This document shows, one piece after another, positions 38,064 through 62,968 of a DNA stretch of 64,000 bases. The DNA is from Dromaius novaehollandiae (taxonomy: Eukaryota > Chordata > Aves > Casuariiformes > Dromaiidae). The stretch is from assembly GCF_036370855.1 (NCBI RefSeq), contig NC_088113.1, positions 19,426,501-19,490,500 on the forward strand. The letters run 5' to 3'. The position numbers and the translations under genes were made by a program. The notes below the pieces were generated by a model, which worked only from the letters and a program-made list of their open reading frames with translations, ran no database searches and was not told where the DNA came from. Numbering within the stretch: the stretch's first letter is position 1; each line of letters begins with the position of its first letter.

Positions 38064-38152
38064 GCTTTAGGTCGGCACCGGCCCGGAGCCCGGGAGCATG
38101 GCCGCGATCCCGTCGAGCGGCTCGCTCATGGCCACGCACAACTACTACCGAA
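38064..38152 (+). CDS. PPDPF: PPDPF exon 2 (start codon at 38098)
   Basis: The acceptor is CTTGCAG at 38057-38063. The coding part from 38098 encodes MAAIPSSGSLMATHNYYR and ends in phase 1 at CGAA|GTGAGA. Confidence 0.93.
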
Positions 38153-39223
38153 GTGAGAGCGAGGGCTGCGGGGCCGGGGGCACCGAGCTGGGGCCGCACG
38201 GGGATGGGGACGGGGGCGGTTTGCTCCACTGCTCCGTGTCGAGGTCAGGGGTGCGGGGAGGGGGCAGCCGAAAACGCTGTCGCTGGGGAAGCAAGGCCTC
38301 CGGAGAGGCTGCAGAACCGGTCTGGGGAGCGGCAGCTCCCGGAGTCTCTCCGGGGAGAGAGAGACTTTCCGCTTTAACCAGTCGCCGAAGCCGGGAGGGA
38401 GGGAGGAAAATATTCCCTCGAGGGGGAGCTGGCAGTCGGACTCAACTGCCTGGATTACATGCAGATTACGTGCGGCAATCTGCGTCCTCTTGGCCTCGGG
38501 GCATCGGCAGTGGCTTCCCAAGCGTCGCATGCAAACGCGAGGCCATTAAGTAGCATCCTTGGGGTGGACGTGTTTTTCCCTGCTCTCCTGCATTGCTGGT
38601 ACCTGGGGGTGGCTCTGACGGCCCCGCTCTCGCCCCCAGGGCGCCTGAGCTCGACGTCCAGCAGCAGCTCCTGCGGCAGCTCGGACTACGCCGGGGAGGT
38701 GATCCCGCACCCGCCGGGTGAGTGCCGCCGCCGCGCTTTTCCCGCGCGGGAGCTTGGGATGACGCTGGTCTAGCAGCCGCGATGAGCTGCCTCCCCAGGA
38801 GATCGCAGCGGGAAAAATCCCCGTGGGTTATATAAAAACCCCGACGGAGGTGCCAGGCGCTGAGCGTTATTTTGCATTGCATTTTCAACGAATTGCAAAT
38901 CTCACCCGACCTGCCGCCTCCTGCGCCCTAGGTCTCCCCAAGGCGGACCCCGGGCACTGGTGGGCCAGCTTCTTCTTCGGGAAGACCGCTCACCCCGCCA
39001 TGACCACGGTGGCGGAGTCCCCGGAGCGGTGAGTGGGGCTCGGGGACGGGGAGCGCCGCCGTGGCGGGGGGCAGACCCTGGGGGTGGCCTCACCGGGTGC
39101 CCGCTCTCTTGCAGCCCGGGAGCCGTGCAGGCGGCGGGCGACGGGCCGGTCTGCGGCGCGGTGCCGGCGGCCGGGAGGAAGCGCCACGCCAGCGAGCCCA
39201 GCCAGCCCCGCGCCGCCTCCTGA
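38098..39223 (+). CDS. PPDPF: PPDPF, pancreatic progenitor cell differentiation and proliferation factor (complete)
   Basis: PPDPF is a small vertebrate protein (exdpf in fish) linked to exocrine pancreas growth; its biochemistry is poorly defined. Coding segments 38098-38152, 38640-38717, 38932-39028 and 39115-39223 join in phase to 112 codons plus stop (human 114). It reads MAAIPSSGSLMATHNYYRR, a serine-rich stretch STSSSSSCGSS, then the family hallmark GEVIPHPPGLPKADPGHWWA with SFFFGK, and a variable tail ending QPRAAS. Donors are CGAA|GTGAGA, GCCGG|GTGAGTG and GCG|GTGAGTG; acceptors are CCCCCAG|GG, CCCTAG|GT and TTGCAG|CC. The first two thirds are strongly conserved with human as recalled, the tail is not. 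The ATG is in the exon that opens at 38064 (CTTGCAG|GC). It is transcribed away from EEF1A2, as in human. Confidence 0.96.
38640..38717 (+). CDS. PPDPF: PPDPF exon 3
   Basis: The exon encodes the serine-rich segment through DYAGEVIPHPP. Length 78 nt, phase 1 at both ends. Confidence 0.94.
38932..39028 (+). CDS. PPDPF: PPDPF exon 4 (conserved core)
   Basis: The exon encodes GLPKADPGHWWASFFFGK and TAHPAMTTVAESPE. Length 97 nt, phase 1 to 2. It is the most conserved part of the family. Confidence 0.95.
39115..39223 (+). CDS. PPDPF: PPDPF exon 5 (C-terminus, TGA at 39221-39223)
   Basis: The exon encodes PGAVQAAGDGPVCGAVP through the basic RKRH and ends QPRAAS. It is diverged from mammals in sequence and similar in length. 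Confidence 0.9.
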
Positions 39224-44519: not shown

Positions 44520-44638
44520 CTGCGCGGGAGTATTCGCCCCTGCTGCTCTGGCTGTCGCGCGCGAGGAAGGAGCCGTGCTGGTGGGGCGGAGAGGAGGAGG
44601 GCTCGGCCTCGCTGCGGCTGAGCTTGCTGAAGTACCAG
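44520..44638 (-). pseudogene. SRMS: SRMS SH2 first-half exon
   Basis: After a good acceptor (CCCCTCGCAG|C) the exon reads WYFSKLSRSEAEPSSSPP, then GSFLARDSQSSRGEYS, and ends at CGCAG|GTAACG. It lines up with SRMS WYFSGVSRTQAQ...GAFLIRPSESSLGGYS; the phosphotyrosine-binding Arg of the FLIR motif is kept. Length 119 nt. Its start phase fits the SH3 frame of the previous exon. Confidence 0.75.
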
Positions 44639-45689: not shown

Positions 45690-45957
45690 TGAGGGGGCTC
45701 TGATACTGCCGGCTGCAATCCCAGCCACTGCCTCCCGGCCACGGGGGCTGGATGGCGGGGGGAGGCTGCCTTTCATAACCACGAGCCCAGGCGCTCCCCA
45801 GCAAGGAAACTCGGAGACAGGTCACACTGATGCTTGGTGCTGCATCAGGCTGAAGCTGATGCTCCCGGCTGCAGCAAGCGGAGGAGCGCGGTGCAGAGCT
45901 GCTCTTGGAAACCCACCTTCCCGTGCAAATGCAAACACACCGAGCCCGGGTACTTAC

Positions 45958-46314
45958 AGCCGGCGAGCGGAGGCTCCCGGGCTGAGACTGGCCACGCAGC
46001 TCGCAGGCACGTAGCCCGTGGCCGGTCCCCCCAGCAGCCTCCTGGCCAGGACACACTCGCCCTCCTCTCTGAGGACGTGCAGTTTGTCCCTGGCGGTTAC
46101 GCTCAGCTTGTCGGTGCTCCGGGCTGCGAAAGCGTATAAAGCGATGAAGAGCGAGGACTTTGGGATGGGGGGAGACGGTGGTCAGCTTGGAGTGCAGCGA
46201 AACAGAATCGGAACCAAAATACCCCAGGGAGCAGCCGTCCGGGCCGGAGTGGGGCCGGAGCTTGGTCTGGACAGACGCCAGACAAGTCAAGCGCTTCCGC
46301 ACAAACTGCTCCAT
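45958..46314 (-). pseudogene. SRMS: SRMS exon 1: N-terminus and SH3 domain in different frames
   Basis: From the ATG at 46314 the frame reads MEQFVRKRLTCLASVQTKLR, close to SRMS MEPFLRRRLAFLS. From about 46157, one frame over, it reads SSLFIALYAFAARSTDKLSV, then EEGECVLARRLLGGPATGYV and PASCVASLSP, a good SH3 domain (ALY.F motif, GYVP). The SH3 frame has a stop at 46184-46182 and no ATG after it, so the two parts cannot be read together as given. A C6 run at 46172-46167 lies between them. The exon ends at GGCT|GTAAGT. Confidence 0.75.
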
Positions 46315-51190: not shown

Positions 51191-51731
51191 ATGAACAGGC
51201 AACGTGGTCATCTTTTTCTCCATTTGTCTCCAGTCCTCTTCCCCTGTCCATACGCACTAGTGTTCCTGTGGTGCCACCTCAGCTGACTCTCTAGGACATT
51301 TACCTAGCAGGGACGACAGAAAAAACATTAGCTTTAAGAGCAGCATTCTGCCCTCCTGATGCCAAATGCCATGACCTGACAGGTATCCAGGCAAATACAA
51401 TTGAATTACCATTCATCATCTGAGCTGCCAAAATTGATTGCACAAATGATCTTTCATGTGTCCCAAATACAAATGAAATACCAGCTCAAGCCACCCTGAG
51501 GGTCAGACTTGCATTTCAACTTGCCGTTGTAGAGGTGTGAGCTTAACTTCATCTCTTCTCTCCTTACTTTCCTTCTTCTGTACCTGCTTGCTAGTTCCCT
51601 CTGATCAGCGCGTTGCTGTTGGCTCTTAAATGCACAGGAGCTGCAGAGGCTGCCAACTTCCATAGCTCGTAGATAAATCCTGCTCATGCTGTGACTCCAT
51701 GGAAGACAAATACTGGGACACAAAATTTTAC

Positions 51732-51825
51732 CTGTTTCTGTAGGGAAGCAACCGTCTTCTCTAGTTCAGCCACAAGGGACTCAAGATTCTCTCTGGAGGT
51801 AGGGCGTGGAGAAGGCACCTCATTC
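51732..51825 (-). CDS. peroxidasin-like coiled-coil exon
   Basis: The exon reads [20 protein letters not shown], then [11 protein letters not shown], a short heptad-like helix as in the C-terminal region of PXDN (EMQKTITDLRTQIKKL). 94 nt, phase 2 to 0, acceptor GTCTCCAG|G, donor AACAG|GTAAAA. If unspliced, the frame stops 15 codons later at 51686-51684. Confidence 0.8.
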
Positions 51826-54800
51826 CTGGAGACAGAGATAGAAAGCAAACAGGATAATGGAAACATCAGCTTCCTGGATGGGGAGAATCATTCTGCCTTC
51901 TCTAACATCAGCCTTAGATTAAGTATCAAATTGGGCACAGAAGGGCCCACATGCCAAGAGATGCCAACCAAATAGTCACACAACTGCCTGATCTACCTAA
52001 ATCCCCTGGCTAGTGCTATGTGTGGTTGGAAACAGTTTTGGGGATTTTTAAAACCTGTCCCTAAAATGGTCTTCTCTGTCATTCTCCCAAGACTGTGAAG
52101 GTGCACAGGAATAGAGGATTAGCAAGGGTATTCACATGTCCTCTCAGTAAGACAGAGCTTCATCTGGTGGCAGTTCAAACAAAGGAAAAAGATCCCTACT
52201 CCTTTGGAGGACTTTGGATCAAGCTCTGTATTTGGTTACTGAAACACTCCTGATCTCTAGGCCTCAGTGCAGAATGCCAATTTCAAAAGTCTGAATGGAC
52301 AGAGCTATTACAAACTTGTTGTGCTCTTCAGAAAGCAGAGGTATAAGAAATGGATCTACCAGACCTGGGAAATGTAGGCTTGTGCTTGGAAGGGTTTTCT
52401 TCCGGGTAGCTGAATCTGGGAGACCTCTTGCTTCGGAACCGCTGGGAAAGAGCCTTGAATTGTCCACGTGTCTGGCAGTCTTGGGAAGGAAGGGAGAATC
52501 TGGAATGAGCATTTATGCTTCAGGCAGAACCATTTGGCTTGAACTGTCTGTGAACAAAGCAGTGCTACCCTCCTTCATTGTCCACCCTCAACACATCAGT
52601 TATGCTGGAGGGAAGCAGGCAGCAAAGGTGTATAGGGCATGCATCCTGCATGGATTACCATGCCTTGGCTGGACACTTGTAGCCAGAATGTAACACAAAG
52701 GGACCAGGGCAGGATCTGCTGTTTAATAGCAGAGTTTTACAGATTCCCGAACGGCATGAAGGTGATCAGAGGAATGAGCATTCATCAAAATCAGGGGGCT
52801 CTGTGAGCTGCTTAGAGGCAAGCAACAAACCAAAAGAGATGTTACAACTTTCACACATAAGCTGGAGGATTTGTTGCCACAGGATGCTGTGGAAGCCAGA
52901 AATGGGAATTGCTCAGATAGGATAGCAAGAAAATAAATCCACAAGTCTTGATTAAATACAATGCCCTCAATGCCGTTTTCTAGCTCAAAGTTCCTCAGCT
53001 ACTGTACATTGTAGAGACCACTGTGCCAATGCCCCATTTTAGTCTCTTCCCCGAGCATGAGCTTTTGGCTGCTGTGAGACAGAAGCCCTGAACTAGGTGG
53101 ACCTTCGGTCAGATTTGACGCAGCTATTTTCCTCTTTGCATCCATTTGCCTCACACATGGCTCTACTTCCCACAGAGAAGTAATGTGTGTCATTAAACCA
53201 GCTCCTGACATGTCATATAAAGTGACAACGTAATGGGAATGCCACCCAGAATCATCCCCATGTCAGTCGGTGCTAGAATGGCCTCATTCCTACCCTCACA
53301 ACAATCCTGCCACAAGCGGAGATCCACTGCTGGAATCTCTTCACAACCAACCATGCCCTGCGGGTATGATGCCACCTGGAAGACGTCTCTCTGGAGCTGC
53401 TGAATGTGGTCACTGTTGTCACAGATGATACGAGCAAGGGATGTCTGTCTGATCTGAGTCAGCTGCGCTGGTGTGAAGACCCCGGGATTCTCGTACCAAA
53501 ATCTGCAGGATTTGCAGATGATAGCATGACTCAAGAGTACAAGACGATGATGGAGAGTGAGGCTGAGAGGGAGAAGAGCTGCCCTACATCTGTATGACAG
53601 CACCCAGACCCCTCAAAAGGAGCTTCTATTCCAGTTTCCCATGCTGTGTTTAATGGCAAACAGGGCCTGCCCTTAGGAGGGCTTCACATAGCTATGAAGA
53701 CAATCTCCCATGAATCCCAGTGAGCTGCTGACCTGAGCTGCAGAGTGACACTGCTTACTCCAGATACAATCCCTTGCAGGGGAATCCTGAGGCTCAGACA
53801 ACTCTACCATAGCAGTTAGGACATGGATTGCTGGGCCCACAAAGCATCTCCCCTAAGTGCATCACGAGGGCAAGAAGAGTCGTGTTAGCATGAGCAGCAA
53901 ATGGGAATGAGAAGGAAGCTCCCTGAGAGATGTTCTAGCATTTTCATGGGACATTGGACATATCTTCAACAGTGTCTGATGTCCTGCAGTGGAATGGAAA
54001 TCATTACATCAGAAAAGGATTGTAATTGTTGCAAGTGCTTTTGCAAATACACTGGACAGAGGAGACCCTTCCCTGTATCGTAAGATGAGGAACAACTGGA
54101 GAAAAATCACAGGTTCTGTTCCCTCCATGTTTCCTGCAAGGAGCAAATCTCCCCAAATAGAAGAATACCAAAGACTGGGTTGACTCTAACAACAATACCT
54201 GTCTCCATCTCTCAGCCTTCTGAACTGCGTTGTTAACAGACACATCAGTGTTGGTCCAACCCTGGTACCAGGGACAAGATCCTCTACCATCAGTGCTGGA
54301 AACAGGTCAATATTTTTGGTAATTCCATATAAGCTGCAGGATAAAAGATAAAAAAAAGGTAAGGGACTGTCAAAGAGTGAAGATAAAAGAGACCTGATTC
54401 CATCATAGGAATGTGTATACAAGAAACTCATCTGGACAACATTTCTAATAGTCTTGTCTGAAAAACAATGAGCACGCCTTGGAAAGAGTAACCTAATGTC
54501 AGCCAGTGCAGATAAGATGCAATTTAGTCTCACTGGAAAATAGCTCCAAGGCTCAATCTGCTTTCAAACTATACCACTCCAATCCCTCATGACATTCCAC
54601 TCAGAACCAGAATGATCACTTGGAGAGATCTAATTTGTCTTGCCCCACTCTTGAACCAAAGCTATTATCCTATCTGAACATCTGTGGGTAGTAATATCTG
54701 GGGAAGGTTATTTGATGGATGTTCTAGGAAGAGCAGTAACTTTTCACAGACTGATTTTCAGTGATTGCGATGCCTCCAAGCCTGGCCAGGCTACCATACC

Positions 54801-57800
54801 TCCTGAGCTTTTCCCTGATCTCCAAGTTCTTTATCTCATTTCTGAGGTCCTCAAACTCCTGTGCAGATGAGAGGTTGCAGAAGACCCTGAAATCATTGTA
54901 AGGTGGGATGCCATGGTCTCGCCCTCTCTGGATGTTGATAGCAGCCAAGTCCAGTGAGACCGAGTGTGCCATTGAGAAGAGCTTCTCTGTCAGCTCCATG
55001 TTGAGGAGTTCTGAGGGTACCCGCATTTTCCCAGGCACCCCGAATAGCCCGCGGAGGAGGGGGTCAATCCCACCCTCCTGTGTGATCCTGAAAGGGGAGA
55101 AGAAGGCTTTGTGCAGGGGGATGTGGCCTTGGCGGATGGGCTGGAAGGTTTCATTCAGCCGGTACAGAACGGGGTTGATCAAGGTGTGCCCAAAGCGGAA
55201 GGCAGCGGTGGCAAAAGCATTGAGGATTCCCGCATTGATGTTTGGGTTGTAGCCTTTGTACTCACCCAGCATCTTCATTCCGGCTTCCCCAAGGATCTTG
55301 GGGAGCCACTGGGCATAGGTGATATGTTGCATTTGGGCACCCACAATCTTCCGTGCCTCGTGATATACGAGATCTCCATCCCAGTGGGGATTGAGGGCTG
55401 ATAGCTCATTGGCAATACGGTTGTGCTCCCGGAACCAAAGGGTGTGCATGGATGTGAGACCCAGCTGCTCATTGGCACGGTGGTCTCCTGCTAGGAAGCA
55501 CGGCACAGGGCTCTCGTTCTCATCTCTCATGCATTCGGTGGGTGGCCCCACAGCAAAGGGAAGAAGGTGCTTCCCCGAGCTGGGCACAACTTGCCCTTGC
55601 TTCAGCAATCCACTCTGGTTGCTCAGATCCCTCAGCTCCTGCGATTCCTGCTCGGTGCTGCCGTAAACATTTGAGGCATCAATGTAAGAGGTCAAGTGGT
55701 TGATCTGCTCCCTGGCATAGACGGAGTTCATTAGCAATGAGGTCATCCCGCTGCCACACACAGGGCTCGAGCGGACAAAGAACATGCAGCGCCCATTCCT
55801 CACACGGGGGTCATTCCCAGGAATCATGACGGAGAAGCAAGGAGGGTCGTTGCTGCACACCTCGCTGCAGGGTGCCCCATCGGAGAAACGGGACATGCTA
55901 ATGGCTGCCACTGTCTGGTCCATGTCGTGGTCCAGAAACTGGCCCCATTGCATGAGCATGTGAGTGAACTGGTCATCTGGGGTGATGGTCTCAGTCCCAA
56001 TCATGGCAGTGGAGACAAGGCGGGGTAATGGAAGGGGCAGGTCCCTGGAGTCTTCTGCCAAAGAAAATCCCCGGGGGAGGTTAAATCCATTCTGGTAGGC
56101 TGGCTTGAGGAGTCTCTGGAAGGCTGTGAGAGATGCACCCCACATAGGGTGCTGGAGGTTGTTGCAAGAGCCGTCGTGGGTCCTGTACTTCTTGTGGAAG
56201 CAGATATCTGAGCAGTTAGGTGTACGGCGGTGTGCAGAGCAGCCAGACAGGTTGGCAATCATGTTCAGGTAGTGAGGGGAGACCAAGTCATTGTAACGAT
56301 AGCCTGCAAAGGTAAATGCAAAAGCAACTCATCAGACCACAGCCGCATTAGCCATCTAGATCCTGAGATCCCATATAAGGGCTCTGACTGGAATCTGTTT
56401 CTGGGATTTTTGTGATGGGCATGAAGACCTGACCTCTGATCTTGGTATTGCTATGCGCTTTATGCAAGGTAAATGAAGCACAGGATCATATCAGGCCGAA
56501 GCATATCAGGCCCAAAGAGAAGAAAAGAATGAGAAAAGAGTTTAGTATAAACTGCGCAGACCTCGAAATCTGAAACATTAAACAGAAGACCAAGCTGTGG
56601 GGGTGGTCTTGGTCTCCATTCTGCAGTCAGCACTGGGTTTCTTTTTATGTCTGTCTGGGTTATTACTGCAGCCTCAAGCATAACTGATCATCCAAATTAT
56701 ACGTGACGAGCAGCAGGGAAGCCGTCAGTGGCTGCCGGGACACTACGCTCTGTGAAAGCGCTGAATAAGGCAGAGTCGTGCGGATGCTGACAGGGCCGCG
56801 AGGACAAGAGGTTGCAGTCCGACTAGCCCAGACTAGACCTGCAGCTTGGAGCGAGACTCCTCACAGGCTGGAACATATCCAGACAGGCAAAAATATTTAT
56901 GTGCCCAAACGTACATGATGACTAACACATATAGGTAGAAATGTGCAGCGCATGAGACTTTTCCTTCGTATAAAGGAAATGTCTCTCTTCCCACTGCAGA
57001 GGGACTGAATCTTAGATCCATAAAGGTACTTACATGCCCACTCCTCTTCGGAATTAATGGGAGGTAGATGGCTAAATATTTTTAAGGATTAGGGCCTTAA
57101 TAACCACTCAGGAAATCTTTAGCAAAATGGGGAACTGAACTACAGTTTCCTGAGTACCAGGTTGGTACAGTAACCACAAGACCAGCCCTCTGGCTGTTAA
57201 AAAAATCATTAGATGTAAGAGAGAATTGCAATCCTGACAACACATTTCTTGAGTTACTGATCTAGACTTTTGGTACAACGTTCCACACTTTATCTTTCTG
57301 GATAAACTGTTGTTTTAATTAAATCTTACCCAGAAATCTGTTCAGAGTTAAGGAGAGTTAAGGAGGGAAATACATCTTTCATACCTGTGACATTCATATC
57401 CACGATTAAGCCTTGCTGCACATGTTCTTGAATCAGCTGCAAGGTTCTTTCAAAGATCTCACCCGCCCTGGCTGTTTCAATGGTATAGGGGTCCCGGGGG
57501 TAACGGAAGAGAGCCAGAAGGTCATTGGGAGTCTTGGGGCGCCTGTTTCAAGGAATTAAAAGTGATGCAGAAATATTAAAATGAGTATGTTGTTCAGAGC
57601 AACGAGACACCGCAGGCAGCAGCAGGCAGGTTCTAAGCCTTGTCTGATGCTGAACCCCAAAATCTAGTGCATATGAATGATGTGGCTTGCCTGCATATGC
57701 AGATGATAAAGACAGGATATTTTTCCCCAGGAAAATGCACACATTTAATTTCCTCAGCATCTCTATTTCTTCTACTCTAGTAATGTATTTTTCACTTTTC

Positions 57801-60800
57801 AACAGCTGAAACCCAGAGGTTTTTGGCTTAACACAAACTGTCTATCTTTTCAATAAAAAGCTTATTTTTGGATAGAAGAGGAGGGAATTTCCATTCACTC
57901 AGAAGTAATTTCTCATTAAGAAAATGGTTGTAATTAAATTATTATTTTTATTCACCCTGCACTAAGTCAGTTGCTTTTATAAAATGACTATGCTGATTAT
58001 TTTCTTTTCTATGCACTGTCTCTAGAGCCAGCTCCAGCTGACAAAATGCATGTAGCAGATATATATGACATAGAAGGTGATATTAATATCTAAGACGTTT
58101 CCAGAATCCCAAACACCTTCCTGTTATGAATCTCTATCTCATTCTTACATCTACATGGTGTCGCTTCAATCTCCAGTACATGAAACAATAGTGCAGCTTT
58201 TATTTATAGATTGTCACCAACAAAATGAGATTTCGAAAAGCTTCGTTCAGCATCTCTTTTATCTCTTTTCTGCTTCACATCTCTGATCTTGGTGCTTCAT
58301 GCACTTACTTGCTAAACAGCTCAGTGCGTGTTGAATTAATAGCGTAGTCCACACTGCTGATGGCTTCCCGTATTGATGTGGCTACAAACATGTCACCGCT
58401 CCGACCGACATCCATGGCTTTCCAAAAGAGCGAGAGAATACCAATTTCTTAATTTACTTTGTTAAGAATCTCTCTTCCAAGCTCAAGAAACTCTACATAT
58501 CAGTACGAGCATCATAGTAACTCCACTGCATGTAGAACACCATTACCATTTGCCACATAAACAACATGAAACTTTATAACAGATATTCTGAAAGAGAAAT
58601 TAACTGACAGAAGAAACTATGGCAAAACAGGTGACTTTTGGGGGAGATGTCTGTGGAACACATATATGGAGTCTGCTGCTGTGGCGCTTTCCAAATAAAC
58701 ATCTATTTTGGTTTGTGGCTAAAGCAGAAAAAGTACAAATTACAGTGGACTATCCCAAAATAGTGCATTTTCTTCCCATGAAGGAAACTTCTAAATCTCA
58801 AAGTTCATTTTAATGTATTGCTTATGCATTAATTTTTCCTTTCTGAAGCATTTCTAATTCACTTCAAATTCAGTGTTAACACATCAAACACAATTTAAAA
58901 TAAAAAGGAAAGCTGTTTTTTGAATACCTTCAGAAGGAAACACTTAAATTCTTAAAAAAATACTATAGAATGCATTTTTAAAGCATTAATTAATTTATTA
59001 AGCTCTGGCCAGCACAGAATGGCATTTCTATTAAGTTATTTGACCCTAAATTTCCCTTCAGACCTAACTGTGGTCCACAGATTGCAAATGTGGCTCTAAA
59101 TGTGACCCACCTCCCTGCCATTCTGGGGGACAATACACAGGCCCTTTGTTACAGATAAGCAAACCAGTTCCCATTTGGCTATGGACGTAGTGCAACAGGC
59201 AGCTGGAAAATGAGGTACCAATCAGGCATAAATCATAGCAATTATCTTATGAATAATTTTAAACAACAAAGAAATTACAGGTTATTCTCAGTTCCTTGCA
59301 TACAATCCCTGTATAGAAAATGATAATAAATTTGTCTAATAATCTACTCACTATTCATGCTGGTTATTCCTGCGTGCTTGAGAAATATGCCTCTACTTAA
59401 GTTTTTAACCTTATTGCTCGCCTTTGAATTTTTTTCCTTATCAGTTCTTCCTTACCCTCCAAGAAGCACAATTTCCACACTTGACCTCTGGTTTGATTAG
59501 CAGAAGAGTGACTCTTCTTTATTCATTACAGTTTCTGCTTAGCCTTCCCTAATACACAGAGATGTAGTTTGAAAACTAGAGAATCATTTCCCAGCCCCAA
59601 GGGATTTAGTGAATTTTTAAAACCCTGTGTTTGCACCAACAATGTTGTTCTCATTCTTCCTCCCCTAGTGTGTGAGGTTACGGTCAGACAGTGACTTGAG
59701 AGCATGTTAGCACATTTTAATAAGTTACTGCCTCTCAACGGAGACGCAGTAACTACAAGCACACTGTCAGCGCACTGCAGTGTGAGACAAAGCAGGCTCG
59801 CGGGAGGTAGTTTAAGACAACACCTTTTCCTTTGCACTGTGCAATTGCATCTCAGCTGAGATAACAGTGAGGAACAGCTGGGAGGTGTACGGGGTTACAC
59901 AACTGAAAGATTGTCTCATCATGTCTGTGAATGGCCTCTCTATAAAGAAGCTAAAGAATTAGCAGAATTATCCTTCAAAGCAAAGGCATCAATACAGCAC
60001 AACCCCTCCCTTACATGAGAGCAGAGAAGAGAGAAGGCGCTAAAGGATCACAGGAGATACTCTACCAGTGATAGTGAGCTGCATAGTACTGGAGGTGAAG
60101 CCAAAGGGGTTTCTTGCTATACACTCGTATCTGCCCTGATCAGCCACGCCAAGGTCTTGGATGGAGAGGGTCCCATCCGGGCTTACGTGGAACTTGCCAC
60201 TCTCCGTGATCTGAATTCCCTCCTGTTGCATGATCAAAAGACAAAAAAGGCATCAGTGTGTGGAAAGCCTCCTAGCACCCCAGCCTTCAGCCTTCACCCT
60301 TCCCAGCAAACCCATCAACAGATGTGATTAACCAGTGCGGCCACCAGATGTTAGCATTGCTCTTCCAAAAAACCCAGAAAAGCACAAAAGCACATCTGAT
60401 GCTGCCTTACTGAACCCACTGCAGTGGCATCCTTGTTCAGCTCCTTCACCCTGATCTGCCTTCAGGCACCCACTGCAAGGCAGAAGCACTGCATGCACTT
60501 CACCGCACTTCTCACAGACCAGCTGGCAGGAGTGAGTGCTGTACCCCCACGCTGTCACAGAAATTTAGAGCCACATAAGCTCTGAACACCTTCAGTTTGG
60601 GAGCCATCTGAAACTGATGGATATTGCTGACCTTGAACTGCAATTACACCAGCTTTTGCTGACTCTGGGCAGCCCAAGGCAAGCTGCAGATCACCTCTAA
60701 GAGACCTCTGCAGGTAACTGAGGCTCATGCATTTTCCCTGTAATTTCTTCCATGCCTGACTGTGCTCACAGGTATGGTAGGTCCCCGTGAAGGTCGTAGC

Positions 60801-62968
60801 TGTTGTGGCACAGCAGGGCGAAGTCTGAAGAGCTCCACCTAATGAATTTTTCTAAAAACAGTAGCCAAAGTGCAGCGTAGCTGTGACTGACCATGGCTTT
60901 GCCCCATCAAAGCTGGAGCCAGCCAAAATTGTTACACAAAAGCATTGCATCCCACTTCTGCCAGTGGGAAATCTGTAAATAAGGACAAGCTACTTAAAAA
61001 GTATCTTTTTTCAGTACTTTCCAGGAATAGTCAAACAATGTTAATAACACCCTGGAAGGTCAGTAGTTTGGAAGGACATGACTTGTCTGGAAGGAAAAGC
61101 AAGAGAAAAAGGCATTCTGCATTGCTCGGCTTAAAGCTTGAGAAAAATAAACATTTTTTTAAATCATTTAAAACCACAATCAGTGGAAAAGTTAGTCTTA
61201 ACATTTCTTCAAGAACAACTTCTTCCACGTCTAGTGCACAAAGAGACCGAGCTGGGAGAGCTGTTTAACCAGAGAGTTGTGCAGGGCCTGTGGTGACTAT
61301 CAAGCAATAGAGTCTCTTACTTTGACCCAGGTTATGGTGGGCCGTGGATCTCCTTGGGCAGCACAGGTAATCGCAACATCCTGGCCTGTCTCTGCCACCA
61401 CATCTTGGGGGGGATGAAGAAACACAGGTATCACTGTGCAACACAGGAAAAAGAGTCACTAGCACGAGAAATGCATTGAGGAAAACAGCCACATCCATGT
61501 TTGAAACATCTCACTACTGTGAAATCAGAGCTGCTGGGCATTTTCTGCTGTTGCAAGAGCTCTTCAAAGAGGTGTCAGTAACCATGTTCTCTGTCTCTCT
61601 ACCAAGTCCTCCATAATTTACATTTATTATTTTCTGCTACTATTCATGTCTCAGCTTGGGACAATTACACAGGAATATGTCAGCATCTTTAAGTCAAAGA
61701 CTTTCTAGAAGAGATGCTCTAGCTGAAATAACTATTGTGAATTGATTCAAGAATTATTGTATGAGCCTCTGTGGCACGTGTTAGTCAGGTCAGACTACTG
61801 ATCATATCGATCCCCCTGGTCTTCCAGTAATCTGGGAATTCTTCATCTGAAGCATCACTACTTTCACATGTTTCTAGCTGGTTTCCTTCTCTGCAGTTTA
61901 CCACTGGTAAAATTCCAGCGTGTTTGTGAAACAGCAGGGATGTTTTCTTGTTGAAAAAGATCATTTACATGGGAATAAAAAAGAAAATAAAAACATGAAA
62001 GCATTTCTGCATGACTTGTGTTTTTTGAAGGCTTGATTCTAGAACACCTGAATTTAGATTGAACTATAATCCAGTAGCTAGTGTTTAAGACAAATATATC
62101 TGAACCAGAGGTAAATCTTGCTGATAAGTTATTGCTTTTCTGCAGAATATTTAATTTAAAAAAACAGTATAATTCATTTGGTAGGAAAGCCAAAATTAAA
62201 AATAGGAAAAGAAAAAAAGAATTACCAAGATTTTAATTAATAAAACTTTCTCCAAAGTCTCCAACAAACATCCTCTGTTTCCTTTTCTTTACCAAAATCA
62301 TTATTCATAATAACAATTCCCAAAGACAGTAAAAAGCCCACATCTTCATTTTTCACTCAGCTGGTCAGATATCATCGTTCATCTGATGACTGGTAACTTG
62401 TCAAAGTAACTGGTCACTTCTGATCATACAAACCCTGCCCTAATGTTTATCCTTTCAGATGCAGACTGATACAGTCCCTTCTCCCTTTTACTGACCGAAT
62501 CAGATGAGTTTCATCCTCACAACTATATACTTTCTAGACAACAAAACAAATTTTCAAATAACGAAAACTGAAGCAACTTCTTCCAATTTATAGATCTTGG
62601 CACTCTGGAAAACTTGTTAGAATTTCCCAACAACTGATGGAGCTTTTATGGCTAGATTTCTGCTCCTGGGCAAAAGCAAAATCACAACTCAGGGGAATTA
62701 GGGCAATTCCCTGCCTTGTCAGACAATGCATTATTTAGCATAATATAAACTTAATGAAACCCATTTGCCAGCCCTTATTACCCACCAGCTTTAGCTTTTA
62801 CCAGCTTACCTCGAGGGGTCACTGTCAGCTGTACTGGGAGGCTCCTTACACCAATGGCACTGATAGCATGGCATTCATATTGACCTTGGTCATGTAAAGC
62901 AACCCTCATCACCCGCAGGGTACCAGTGGAGAGGATGCTATGTCTCCGGTCATTCGGCAAAGGCCCAC
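51732..62968 (-). CDS. peroxidasin-family haem peroxidase (3' two thirds; third peroxidasin paralogue?)
   Basis: Peroxidasins are secreted matrix peroxidases; PXDN makes hypobromous acid that forms sulfilimine cross-links in collagen IV. Ten segments (62968-62810, 61433-61321, 60222-60066, 58417-58309, 57542-57385, 56303-54800, 54333-54199, 53502-53294, 52479-52365, 51825-51732) have GT-AG borders and agreeing phases: 917 codons without a stop. In order they encode the end of Ig3, Ig4, a linker, the full peroxidase domain, a basic linker and a coiled coil. Distal His (GQFLDHDMD), Arg/Glu (LWFREHNR) and proximal His (FRFGHT) are present. Signal peptide, LRRs and Ig1-2 lie off the right edge; no VWC exon was found. 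Wording such as DFRVFCNL and [17 protein letters not shown] recalls PXDNL, but the active site is intact, unlike human PXDNL. It is not in the PXDN or PXDNL neighbourhood, so I give no symbol. Confidence 0.92.
52365..52479 (-). CDS. peroxidasin-like linker exon
   Basis: The exon reads [20 protein letters not shown], then [12 protein letters not shown], matching PXDN [20 protein letters not shown] and FSYQEDKP. The RSKR stretch resembles a furin-type basic site, and PXDN is known to be cleaved by proprotein convertase near here. 115 nt, phase 1 to 2. Confidence 0.88.
53294..53502 (-). CDS. peroxidasin-like peroxidase-domain 3' exon
   Basis: The exon reads [20 protein letters not shown], then [19 protein letters not shown], then [16 protein letters not shown]. 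Length 209 nt, phase 2 to 1, acceptor TCCTGCAG|AT, donor GAGG|GTAGGA. Confidence 0.95.
54199..54333 (-). CDS. peroxidasin-like exon ([11 protein letters not shown])
   Basis: The exon reads [20 protein letters not shown], then [20 protein letters not shown] and RDGD. Length 135 nt, phase 2 at both ends, acceptor TCCTGCAG|C, donor GACAG|GTATTG. Confidence 0.95.
54800..56303 (-). CDS. peroxidasin-like giant peroxidase exon
   Basis: A single 1504-nt exon, phase 1 to 2, carries most of the haem peroxidase domain, as in PXDN. Landmarks in order are [54 protein letters not shown] with FLDHDMD (distal His), [56 protein letters not shown] with [20 protein letters not shown] (proximal His), [12 protein letters not shown] and [20 protein letters not shown]. 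No frame break was seen. Confidence 0.97.
57010..57205 (-). repeat. old amniote SINE-like element with hairpin tail
   Basis: On the minus strand it starts with a tRNA-like head (GTCTTGTGGTTACTGTACC, then GTAGTTCAGTTCCC resembling a B box). It ends with an imperfect inverted repeat: AAATATTTAGCCATCTACCTCCCATTAAT pairs loosely with a later GGGCATGTAAGTACCTTTATGG. Turtle and crocodile genomes carry many elements with a similar 'ctaactcccattgatttcaatgggagttagg' palindrome. Family name uncertain. Confidence 0.45.
57385..57542 (-). CDS. peroxidasin-like exon (peroxidase N-terminal part)
   Basis: The exon reads [20 protein letters not shown], then [20 protein letters not shown] and GLIVDMNVT. Length 158 nt, phase 2 to 1, acceptor TGAAACAG|G, donor CACAG|GTATGA. 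Confidence 0.95.
58309..58417 (-). CDS. peroxidasin-like exon (FVATSIREA)
   Basis: The exon reads [20 protein letters not shown], then [15 protein letters not shown]. It corresponds to PXDN GDPFVATSIVEA and INSTRTHLF, the link from Ig4 to the peroxidase. Length 109 nt, phase 1 to 2, donor AGCAA|GTAAGT; the acceptor TTGGAAAG|CC has a weak pyrimidine tract. Confidence 0.9.
60066..60222 (-). CDS. peroxidasin-like Ig4 second-half exon
   Basis: The exon reads [20 protein letters not shown], then [19 protein letters not shown], with the Ig signature DxGxYxC. Length 157 nt, phase 0 to 1, acceptor GCAACAG|GAG, donor CACTG|GTAGAG. Confidence 0.93.
61321..61433 (-). CDS. peroxidasin-like Ig4 first-half exon
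   Basis: The exon reads [20 protein letters not shown], then [15 protein letters not shown], with the first Cys and the Trp of the Ig fold. Length 113 nt, phase 1 to 0, acceptor GCACAG|TG, donor CAAA|GTAAGA. Confidence 0.93.
62810..62968 (-). CDS. peroxidasin-like Ig3 second-half exon
   Basis: The exon reads [20 protein letters not shown], then [20 protein letters not shown] and [10 protein letters not shown], matching PXDN RRHLVLSSGTLRI and [15 protein letters not shown]. Length 159 nt, phase 1 at both ends, acceptor TGACCAG|GT, donor CGAG|GTAAGC. Confidence 0.93.

Follow-up and report, generated by a model that had tools for sequence, protein, structure and literature searches.

A probable third vertebrate peroxidasin retained beside PCMTD2 and MYT1 in Dromaius novaehollandiae

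Introduction

The genome of Dromaius novaehollandiae carries, on contig NC_088113.1 (hereafter C16), an open-frame peroxidasin gene that is very probably a third vertebrate peroxidasin, a partner of PXDN and PXDNL dating from the early vertebrate genome duplications and retained beside PCMTD2 and MYT1. Part of the gene lies in the window considered here, a stretch of 64,000 nucleotides (C16:19426501-19490500), in which the original prediction, made from the letters alone, had proposed the peroxidasin partner expected beside MYT1; that proposal is supported by the gene order at three loci and by the tree. The gene was modelled on the window and the next 70 kb rightward, and the genome searched comprised 1.468 Gb in 271 contigs. 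Its 1,406 codons are spread over 22 exons on the minus strand, between the start codon (C16:19522304) and the stop (C16:19477708); there are no internal stops, 21 of 21 introns have AG/GT sites and the phases are compatible throughout. The gene extends beyond the right edge of the window, and exons 12-22 are the part within it. The exon search was guided by provisional human sequences; the open reading frame, its phases and its splice sites were read off the DNA itself. In the 1,406-residue product, Pfam profiles recognise three stretches of leucine-rich repeats (LRR; LRR_8), four immunoglobulin (Ig) domains (I-set) and An_peroxidase, the last matched at all 530 positions of its profile, in the order LRR, Ig, An_peroxidase that characterises the peroxidasin family.

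Gene order at three peroxidasin loci

When the genome was searched for animal haem peroxidase domains and all 42 first-look candidates were scored, 39 exon matches emerged. Stop-free single large exons spanning most of the peroxidase profile occur twice, in the C16 gene and at C3:21191950, and a third large-exon copy, with stops, lies on C2 near 137.25 Mb. The other matches fall on C19, C10, C8 and C20, in a TPO-like gene on C3 at about 21.34-21.36 Mb, or in smaller exons of the same three genes. The MYT1 domain is found at three places genome-wide (12 matches), at C16:19.572-19.577 Mb on the minus strand and at C2:136.936-136.955 Mb and C3:21.041-21.052 Mb on the plus strand. The PCMT domain has eight matches, one at C16:19536038 (minus), one at C2:137065742 (plus) and the other six on C3 at about 72.16 Mb and C5 at about 71.38 Mb. 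The three MYT1-domain loci pair one to one with the three large-exon peroxidasin loci, PCMT-domain exons standing in between on C2 and C16. Along the genes the order is MYT1-PCMTD2-third peroxidasin on C16, ST18-PCMTD1-broken copy on C2 and MYT1L-PXDN on C3, all in a single common orientation. This pairing was derived from family searches independent of the provisional human sequences. The names MYT1, ST18, MYT1L, PCMTD1 and PCMTD2 are those we take to apply from gene order and the human map, on which PXDN lies at 2p25 and PXDNL at 8q11; human is known to have two peroxidasins.

Gene order repeated in paralogous blocks, here MYT1/PCMT/peroxidasin on C16 and C2 and MYT1/peroxidasin on C3, is the pattern of paralogues from whole-genome duplication; C16 and C2 also both carry SOX17/18-type genes. 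The original prediction had proposed looking for PXDN beside MYT1L in the same genome and for MYT1 and PCMTD2 further right, and these were located, PXDN adjoining a MYT1-domain gene on C3 and MYT1-domain and PCMT-domain exons lying past the right edge of the window on C16. The PXDNL that it proposed to seek beside ST18 has a copy near PCMT-domain and MYT1-domain genes on C2, and this copy is a broken relic. One alternative is that PXDN or PXDNL was duplicated long ago in a small-scale event, the product landing beside PCMTD2 by chance and not through whole-genome duplication. It gains from an age that is bounded only as older than the bird-human split, and is nevertheless improbable, as a chance landing does not predict MYT1- and PCMT-domain genes recurring in the same order and orientation.

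A broken copy in the PXDNL place

The pieces of the relic lie at 137.203-137.256 Mb on C2 (C2:137195000-137274999 was examined), with recognisable LRR, Ig and peroxidase parts over about 53 kb. Frameshift-aware alignment of its peroxidase exon with the C16 gene as query revealed 3 stops, 10 frameshifts and 35 missing residues; with human PXDNL as query the counts were 3 stops and 13 frameshifts, and with the PXDN of the same genome 3 and 10. The same procedure finds stops or frameshifts in neither the C16 gene nor the C3 PXDN, the latter modelled from exon 2 to the stop, exon 1 not having been found in the stretch examined. This genome has two open-frame peroxidasins and one dead one. The relic occupies the ST18-PCMTD1 place, the neighbourhood of a PXDNL orthologue, and the C16 gene does not lie there.

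Relationships of the C16 gene

Identities were counted over all aligned columns, with provisional, spot-checked sequences of human PXDN and PXDNL. The C16 gene is 70.6% identical to the PXDN of its own genome (953/1349), 69.7% to human PXDN (977/1401) and 61.7% to human PXDNL (861/1396), and the two PXDNs share 86.5% (1222/1412). Since the C16 gene is equally far from its own and from human PXDN, their split predates the parting of birds and mammals, making the gene, as judged from these distances, older than the bird-human split. Myeloperoxidase (MPO), the sole outgroup, is 44.6% identical, close enough to settle the fold, and the C16 gene groups with the PXDN/PXDNL family.

The main tree comprised six rows, namely both PXDNs, the C16 gene, human PXDNL, the relic and MPO as root, with 44 out-of-frame relic residues excluded. 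Its topology is ((own PXDN, human PXDN),(C16 gene,(human PXDNL, relic))), with support of 90/94 for the C16 gene with the PXDNL group and 97/95 for human PXDNL with the relic. Forcing the C16 gene to join its own PXDN gave a P value in the approximately unbiased test (p-AU) of 1.65e-32 with six rows and 4.37e-8 without the relic. Forced with human PXDNL alone or with the relic alone, it gave 0.021 and 0.026 (six rows); including the 44 out-of-frame residues shifted these values to 0.025 and 0.029 and left the outcome unchanged. Without MPO, the relic and human PXDNL joined at 95/94 and the two rival placements had p-AU of 0.029 each; without the relic, the C16 gene and PXDNL grouped at 83/93. 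A one-residue gap is common to the C16 gene, human PXDNL and the relic, and is filled in both PXDNs and in MPO, so that it points the C16 gene to the PXDNL side. The favoured placement, on these sequences, is beside PXDNL and not inside it. Membership of either known group, which would have told against the original prediction, was not found, the tests speaking strongly in the case of PXDN (p-AU <=4.4e-8) and with moderate strength in the case of PXDNL (0.021 and 0.026).

A second alternative makes the C16 gene the PXDNL orthologue proper, transferred out of the ST18 block into that of MYT1. The chicken chromosome 20 gene given with PCMTD2 does bear the name PXDNL, and the tree sets the C16 gene nearer to PXDNL than to PXDN. 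Against such a move, the ST18-PCMTD1 place is occupied by a second, broken copy, which the tree joins to human PXDNL at 97/95, and the placements with human PXDNL alone and with the relic alone carry the low p-AU values of 0.021 and 0.026. In addition, human PXDNL is given with PCMTD1, the two appearing together in a table of PMC7188851, and the W and E of human PXDNL at two active-site places are not those of the C16 gene. A relocated PXDNL is very unlikely.

Several points nonetheless weigh against a third peroxidasin from the genome duplications. The dating, on rows confined to the genes of this genome, human PXDN and PXDNL, and MPO, reaches only "before the bird-human split". The two PXDNs join at 70/85 when MPO is included, compared with 100/100 without it, and the test does not reject a C16 gene sister to both PXDNs (p-AU of 0.081 for six rows and 0.118 without the relic). 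In raw identity the relic is closest to its own PXDN (306/548, 55.8%), followed by the C16 gene (296/548, 54.0%), human PXDN (295/548, 53.8%) and human PXDNL (293/547, 53.6%), and long-branch attraction may act between human PXDNL and the relic; these identities are explicable by a relic of the PXDNL place together with a fast-changing human PXDNL, and the tree's call is of moderate strength. The C16 gene departs from the usual architecture, in that the C-terminal VWC module of canonical long peroxidasins was not found, and it is known here from its DNA. Finally, the human PXDN (1479 residues) and PXDNL (1463) sequences used are provisional. In them PXDN has Q at 823, D at 826 and RGRR at 1333-1336 (a tail of 143), and PXDNL has QKKR ending at 1319 (a tail of 144), all in agreement with PMC8533639; the two are 60.5% identical over aligned columns, with 58% stated in that source.

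Exon structure and the C-terminal end

The ten in-phase exons originally predicted on the minus strand (62968-51732) are borne out by AG/GT sites, an unbroken phase and the absence of stops, and correspond to exons 12-21 of 22; an eleventh in-window exon, which closes the frame, was added at 51303-51208 (exon 22). Exon 12 (62810-62968; AG/GT, phase compatible, I-set E 1.1e-5) carries half of an Ig domain, and the two halves of the last Ig domain lie in exon 13 (61321-61433) and exon 14 (60066-60222), the latter recognised as I-set by Pfam and having a weak donor score (-0.5). Exons 15 (58309-58417) and 16 (57385-57542) form the linker before the peroxidase. The bulk of the haem peroxidase domain is encoded by exon 17 (54800-56303, 1504 nt; An_peroxidase E 1.1e-161), to which the active-site codons map, with Gln at 55941-55939, Asp and His at 55932-55927, Arg at 55479-55477, Glu at 55470-55468 and the proximal His at 55188-55186. 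The domain ends in exons 18 (54199-54333) and 19 (53294-53502). Exon 20 (52365-52479) contains a proprotein-convertase-like site, RSKR, ending at 52424, and exon 21 (51732-51825) a linker that, by eye, resembles a coiled coil. When the exon 2-19 lengths were projected onto the homologous starts in the C3 PXDN, AG preceded and GT followed in 18 of 18 cases.

Exon 22 (51208-51303) opens with VNVLESQL, the C3 PXDN counterpart being IKKLESRL, and its stop precedes any VWC cysteine. By the score of its first eight residues it ranks first of the 437 AG sites that lie from exon 21 to the SH3 exon of the next gene. Over the whole stretch, both strands counted, 2 of 19,585 AG sites attain this score, exon 22 included; with an acceptor score of at least 5 in addition, exon 22 stands alone. 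Scored over its whole length it reaches 35, fifth in the list and inside the control (chance) range. Its identity therefore depends on the acceptor, the phase, the place and those eight residues, and is probable but short of proof. The C3 PXDN has two VWC exons. No VWC module was found at the C16 gene by tblastn over the window and 70 kb (best E 0.030, plus strand, 39518), and the 10.7 kb downstream yielded no second VWC exon, the best scores of 33-37 there comparing with 34-38 on the opposite strand and 27-40 in five shuffles; the control search on C3 scored 211-212 when queried with the C3 sequence itself and 93 with that of the provisional human PXDNL. A sequencing error may affect the end of the frame, although it would leave the absent second VWC exon unexplained. 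The description of the gene as an intact peroxidasin holds for the open frame, domains and active site, and needs qualifying for the VWC part.

The closing of the frame in exon 22 and the missing second VWC exon could also suggest a gene in early decay, its frame already cut at the first VWC exon and the remainder due to go as well. There is little to commend this, given 1,406 stop-free codons, AG/GT at all introns, 35 of 36 cysteines and 6 of 6 active-site residues; true decay, as in the C2 relic, means a single exon with 3 stops and 10 frameshifts. Least credible by far is a recent copy of PXDN, whose exon layout and overall architecture are indeed alike, since the identity to the PXDN of the same genome is only 70.6%, against 86.5% between the two PXDNs, and such a copy is rejected in all trees (p-AU <=4.4e-8).

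Active site and predicted function

Aligned with MPO, the C16 gene keeps all six active-site residues checked, namely the distal Gln, His and Arg, the haem-linking Asp and Glu, and the proximal His. The roles of those other than the counterparts of Gln823 and Asp826 follow the usual assignment in these enzymes. Of 36 aligned human PXDN cysteines 35 are kept, the lost one belonging to the VWC part. At the positions of PXDN Q823 and D826 the provisional human PXDNL has W and E, whereas the C16 gene keeps Q and D; the original prediction of functional-looking catalytic residues, unlike those of human PXDNL, is in line with six residues present in the one and two lacking in the other. According to PMC8533639, changing Q823 and D826 of PXDN to this W/E pair abolishes activity, and PXDNL is reported to be inactive. 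Peroxidasin cross-links basement-membrane collagen IV, human having one active enzyme and one inactive relative, and PXDN is cleaved at Arg1336, a cleavage tied to matrix binding and collagen IV cross-linking (PMC8533639).

The C16 product would, by analogy with PXDN, be an active, secreted, matrix-bound and bromide-oxidising enzyme. With its signal-peptide-like N-terminus (judged by eye), leucine-rich repeats, four Ig domains and haem peroxidase it would be secreted, and the haem would be held via the conserved Asp and Glu. With hydrogen peroxide it would convert bromide to hypobromous acid, which, as in the case of PXDN, would cross-link collagen IV and other matrix proteins. Maturation would proceed via proprotein-convertase cleavage at RSKR, and the VWC tail, which in PXDN lies beyond that cleavage site, would have been lost.

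Among relatives, the C3 PXDN shares the exon 2-19 lengths, the LRR, Ig and haem peroxidase domains, the full active site and a convertase-like site (RGRR in PXDN, RSKR in the C16 gene), and differs in being about 70% identical, in adjoining a MYT1L-type gene and a TPO-like gene, and in having two VWC exons. PXDNL resembles the C16 gene as its favoured tree sister, in the common one-residue gap and in a PCMT-domain neighbour, but differs in having W/E in human in place of Q/D and in its separate locus. A search of solved structures gave 45 matches, including myelo-, lacto- and eosinophil peroxidase, with none named peroxidasin. No relatives were confirmed in viral contigs (12 pattern matches) or in bacterial and archaeal genomes (9).

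Neighbouring genes and other loci

Of the neighbours named originally, PPDPF was located at 38098-39107 (plus) and one KCNQ2 exon at 2914-2837 (minus), with provisional query sequences, and two EEF1A exons were found by Pfam on the minus strand of the window, EEF1A2 having been predicted. The next gene downstream has an SH3 reading frame at 45957-46181 on the minus strand (SH3_1 E 5.5e-5). SRMS had been placed within 6 kb of the peroxidasin, and exon 21 is indeed separated by about 5.55 kb from an SH3 frame of the same strand; the name, however, derives from position and pieces, the kinase core not having been found. The SRMS-like locus (46181-42882, minus) contains an SH2-like piece, FLARDS, at 44568 and a weak C-terminal kinase piece at about 42974-42882 (E 0.001), and the kinase-core motifs HRD and DFG were not matched in the stretch searched. 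This gene may be degenerate or highly divergent.

Elsewhere, C19:12897297-12929400 holds two multi-exon haem peroxidase genes, on the plus and then the minus strand, perhaps of myelo- or lactoperoxidase type. SOX17/18-type matches number four, at C16 19.91 Mb, C3 3.38 Mb and, twice, C2 135.85 Mb; the two on C2 (135849698-135859106) score equally, lie 9 kb apart and are possibly a tandem pair.

Naming and implications

A trait-mapping study in chicken gives "PXDNL,PCMTD2" at 9.06-9.10 Mb of GRCg6a chromosome 20 (PMC7240924). An annotation adjacent to PCMTD2 means that the C16-type gene has not gone unseen, and that the chicken "PXDNL" is probably the same paralogue, misnamed; it shares the PCMTD2 neighbour with the C16 gene and carries the PXDNL name, and the match is one of place. 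Chicken "PXDNL" was reported as decreased in breast muscle after feed supplementation (PMC8464878). No paper naming a third vertebrate peroxidasin was met in the literature searched (peroxidasin evolution, ohnologues, PXDNL, the MYT1 family, collagen IV and processing, chicken, bird gene loss), most of these papers having been left unread. Long peroxidasins have been divided into up to five subfamilies (PMC4420034), and so an unnamed clade may already exist in print. In a table of PMC2315650 the chimpanzee "PXDN" outgroup has 1463 residues, the length of the provisional human PXDNL and not of PXDN, and may be PXDNL.

The C16 gene encodes an enzyme of known type and stands where genome duplication predicts it, with its tail lost; it is not a new kind of system. 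It is likely, if less assured than the origin of the gene, that the bird and mammal lines lost opposite peroxidasins. Mammals would have retained PXDNL, which was later lost in mouse and rat and is without a working active site in human, and dropped the C16-type gene. The bird line would have kept the catalytically complete C16-type gene minus the VWC tail, while its genuine PXDNL decayed, and the PXDNL of bird databases would be paralogous to human PXDNL and differ from it in having an enzymatic role.

Given a third, catalytically complete peroxidasin, results on bird "PXDNL", such as those from chicken muscle and trait mapping, would not be transferable to human PXDNL, and scans for selection that include bird PXDNL may confuse paralogues or trip on the altered 3' end. 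These points would be useful to specialists in peroxidasins and in comparative genomics. Being without the VWC tail, such a third copy would, moreover, provide a natural test of the role of that tail and of whether one such enzyme is sufficient.

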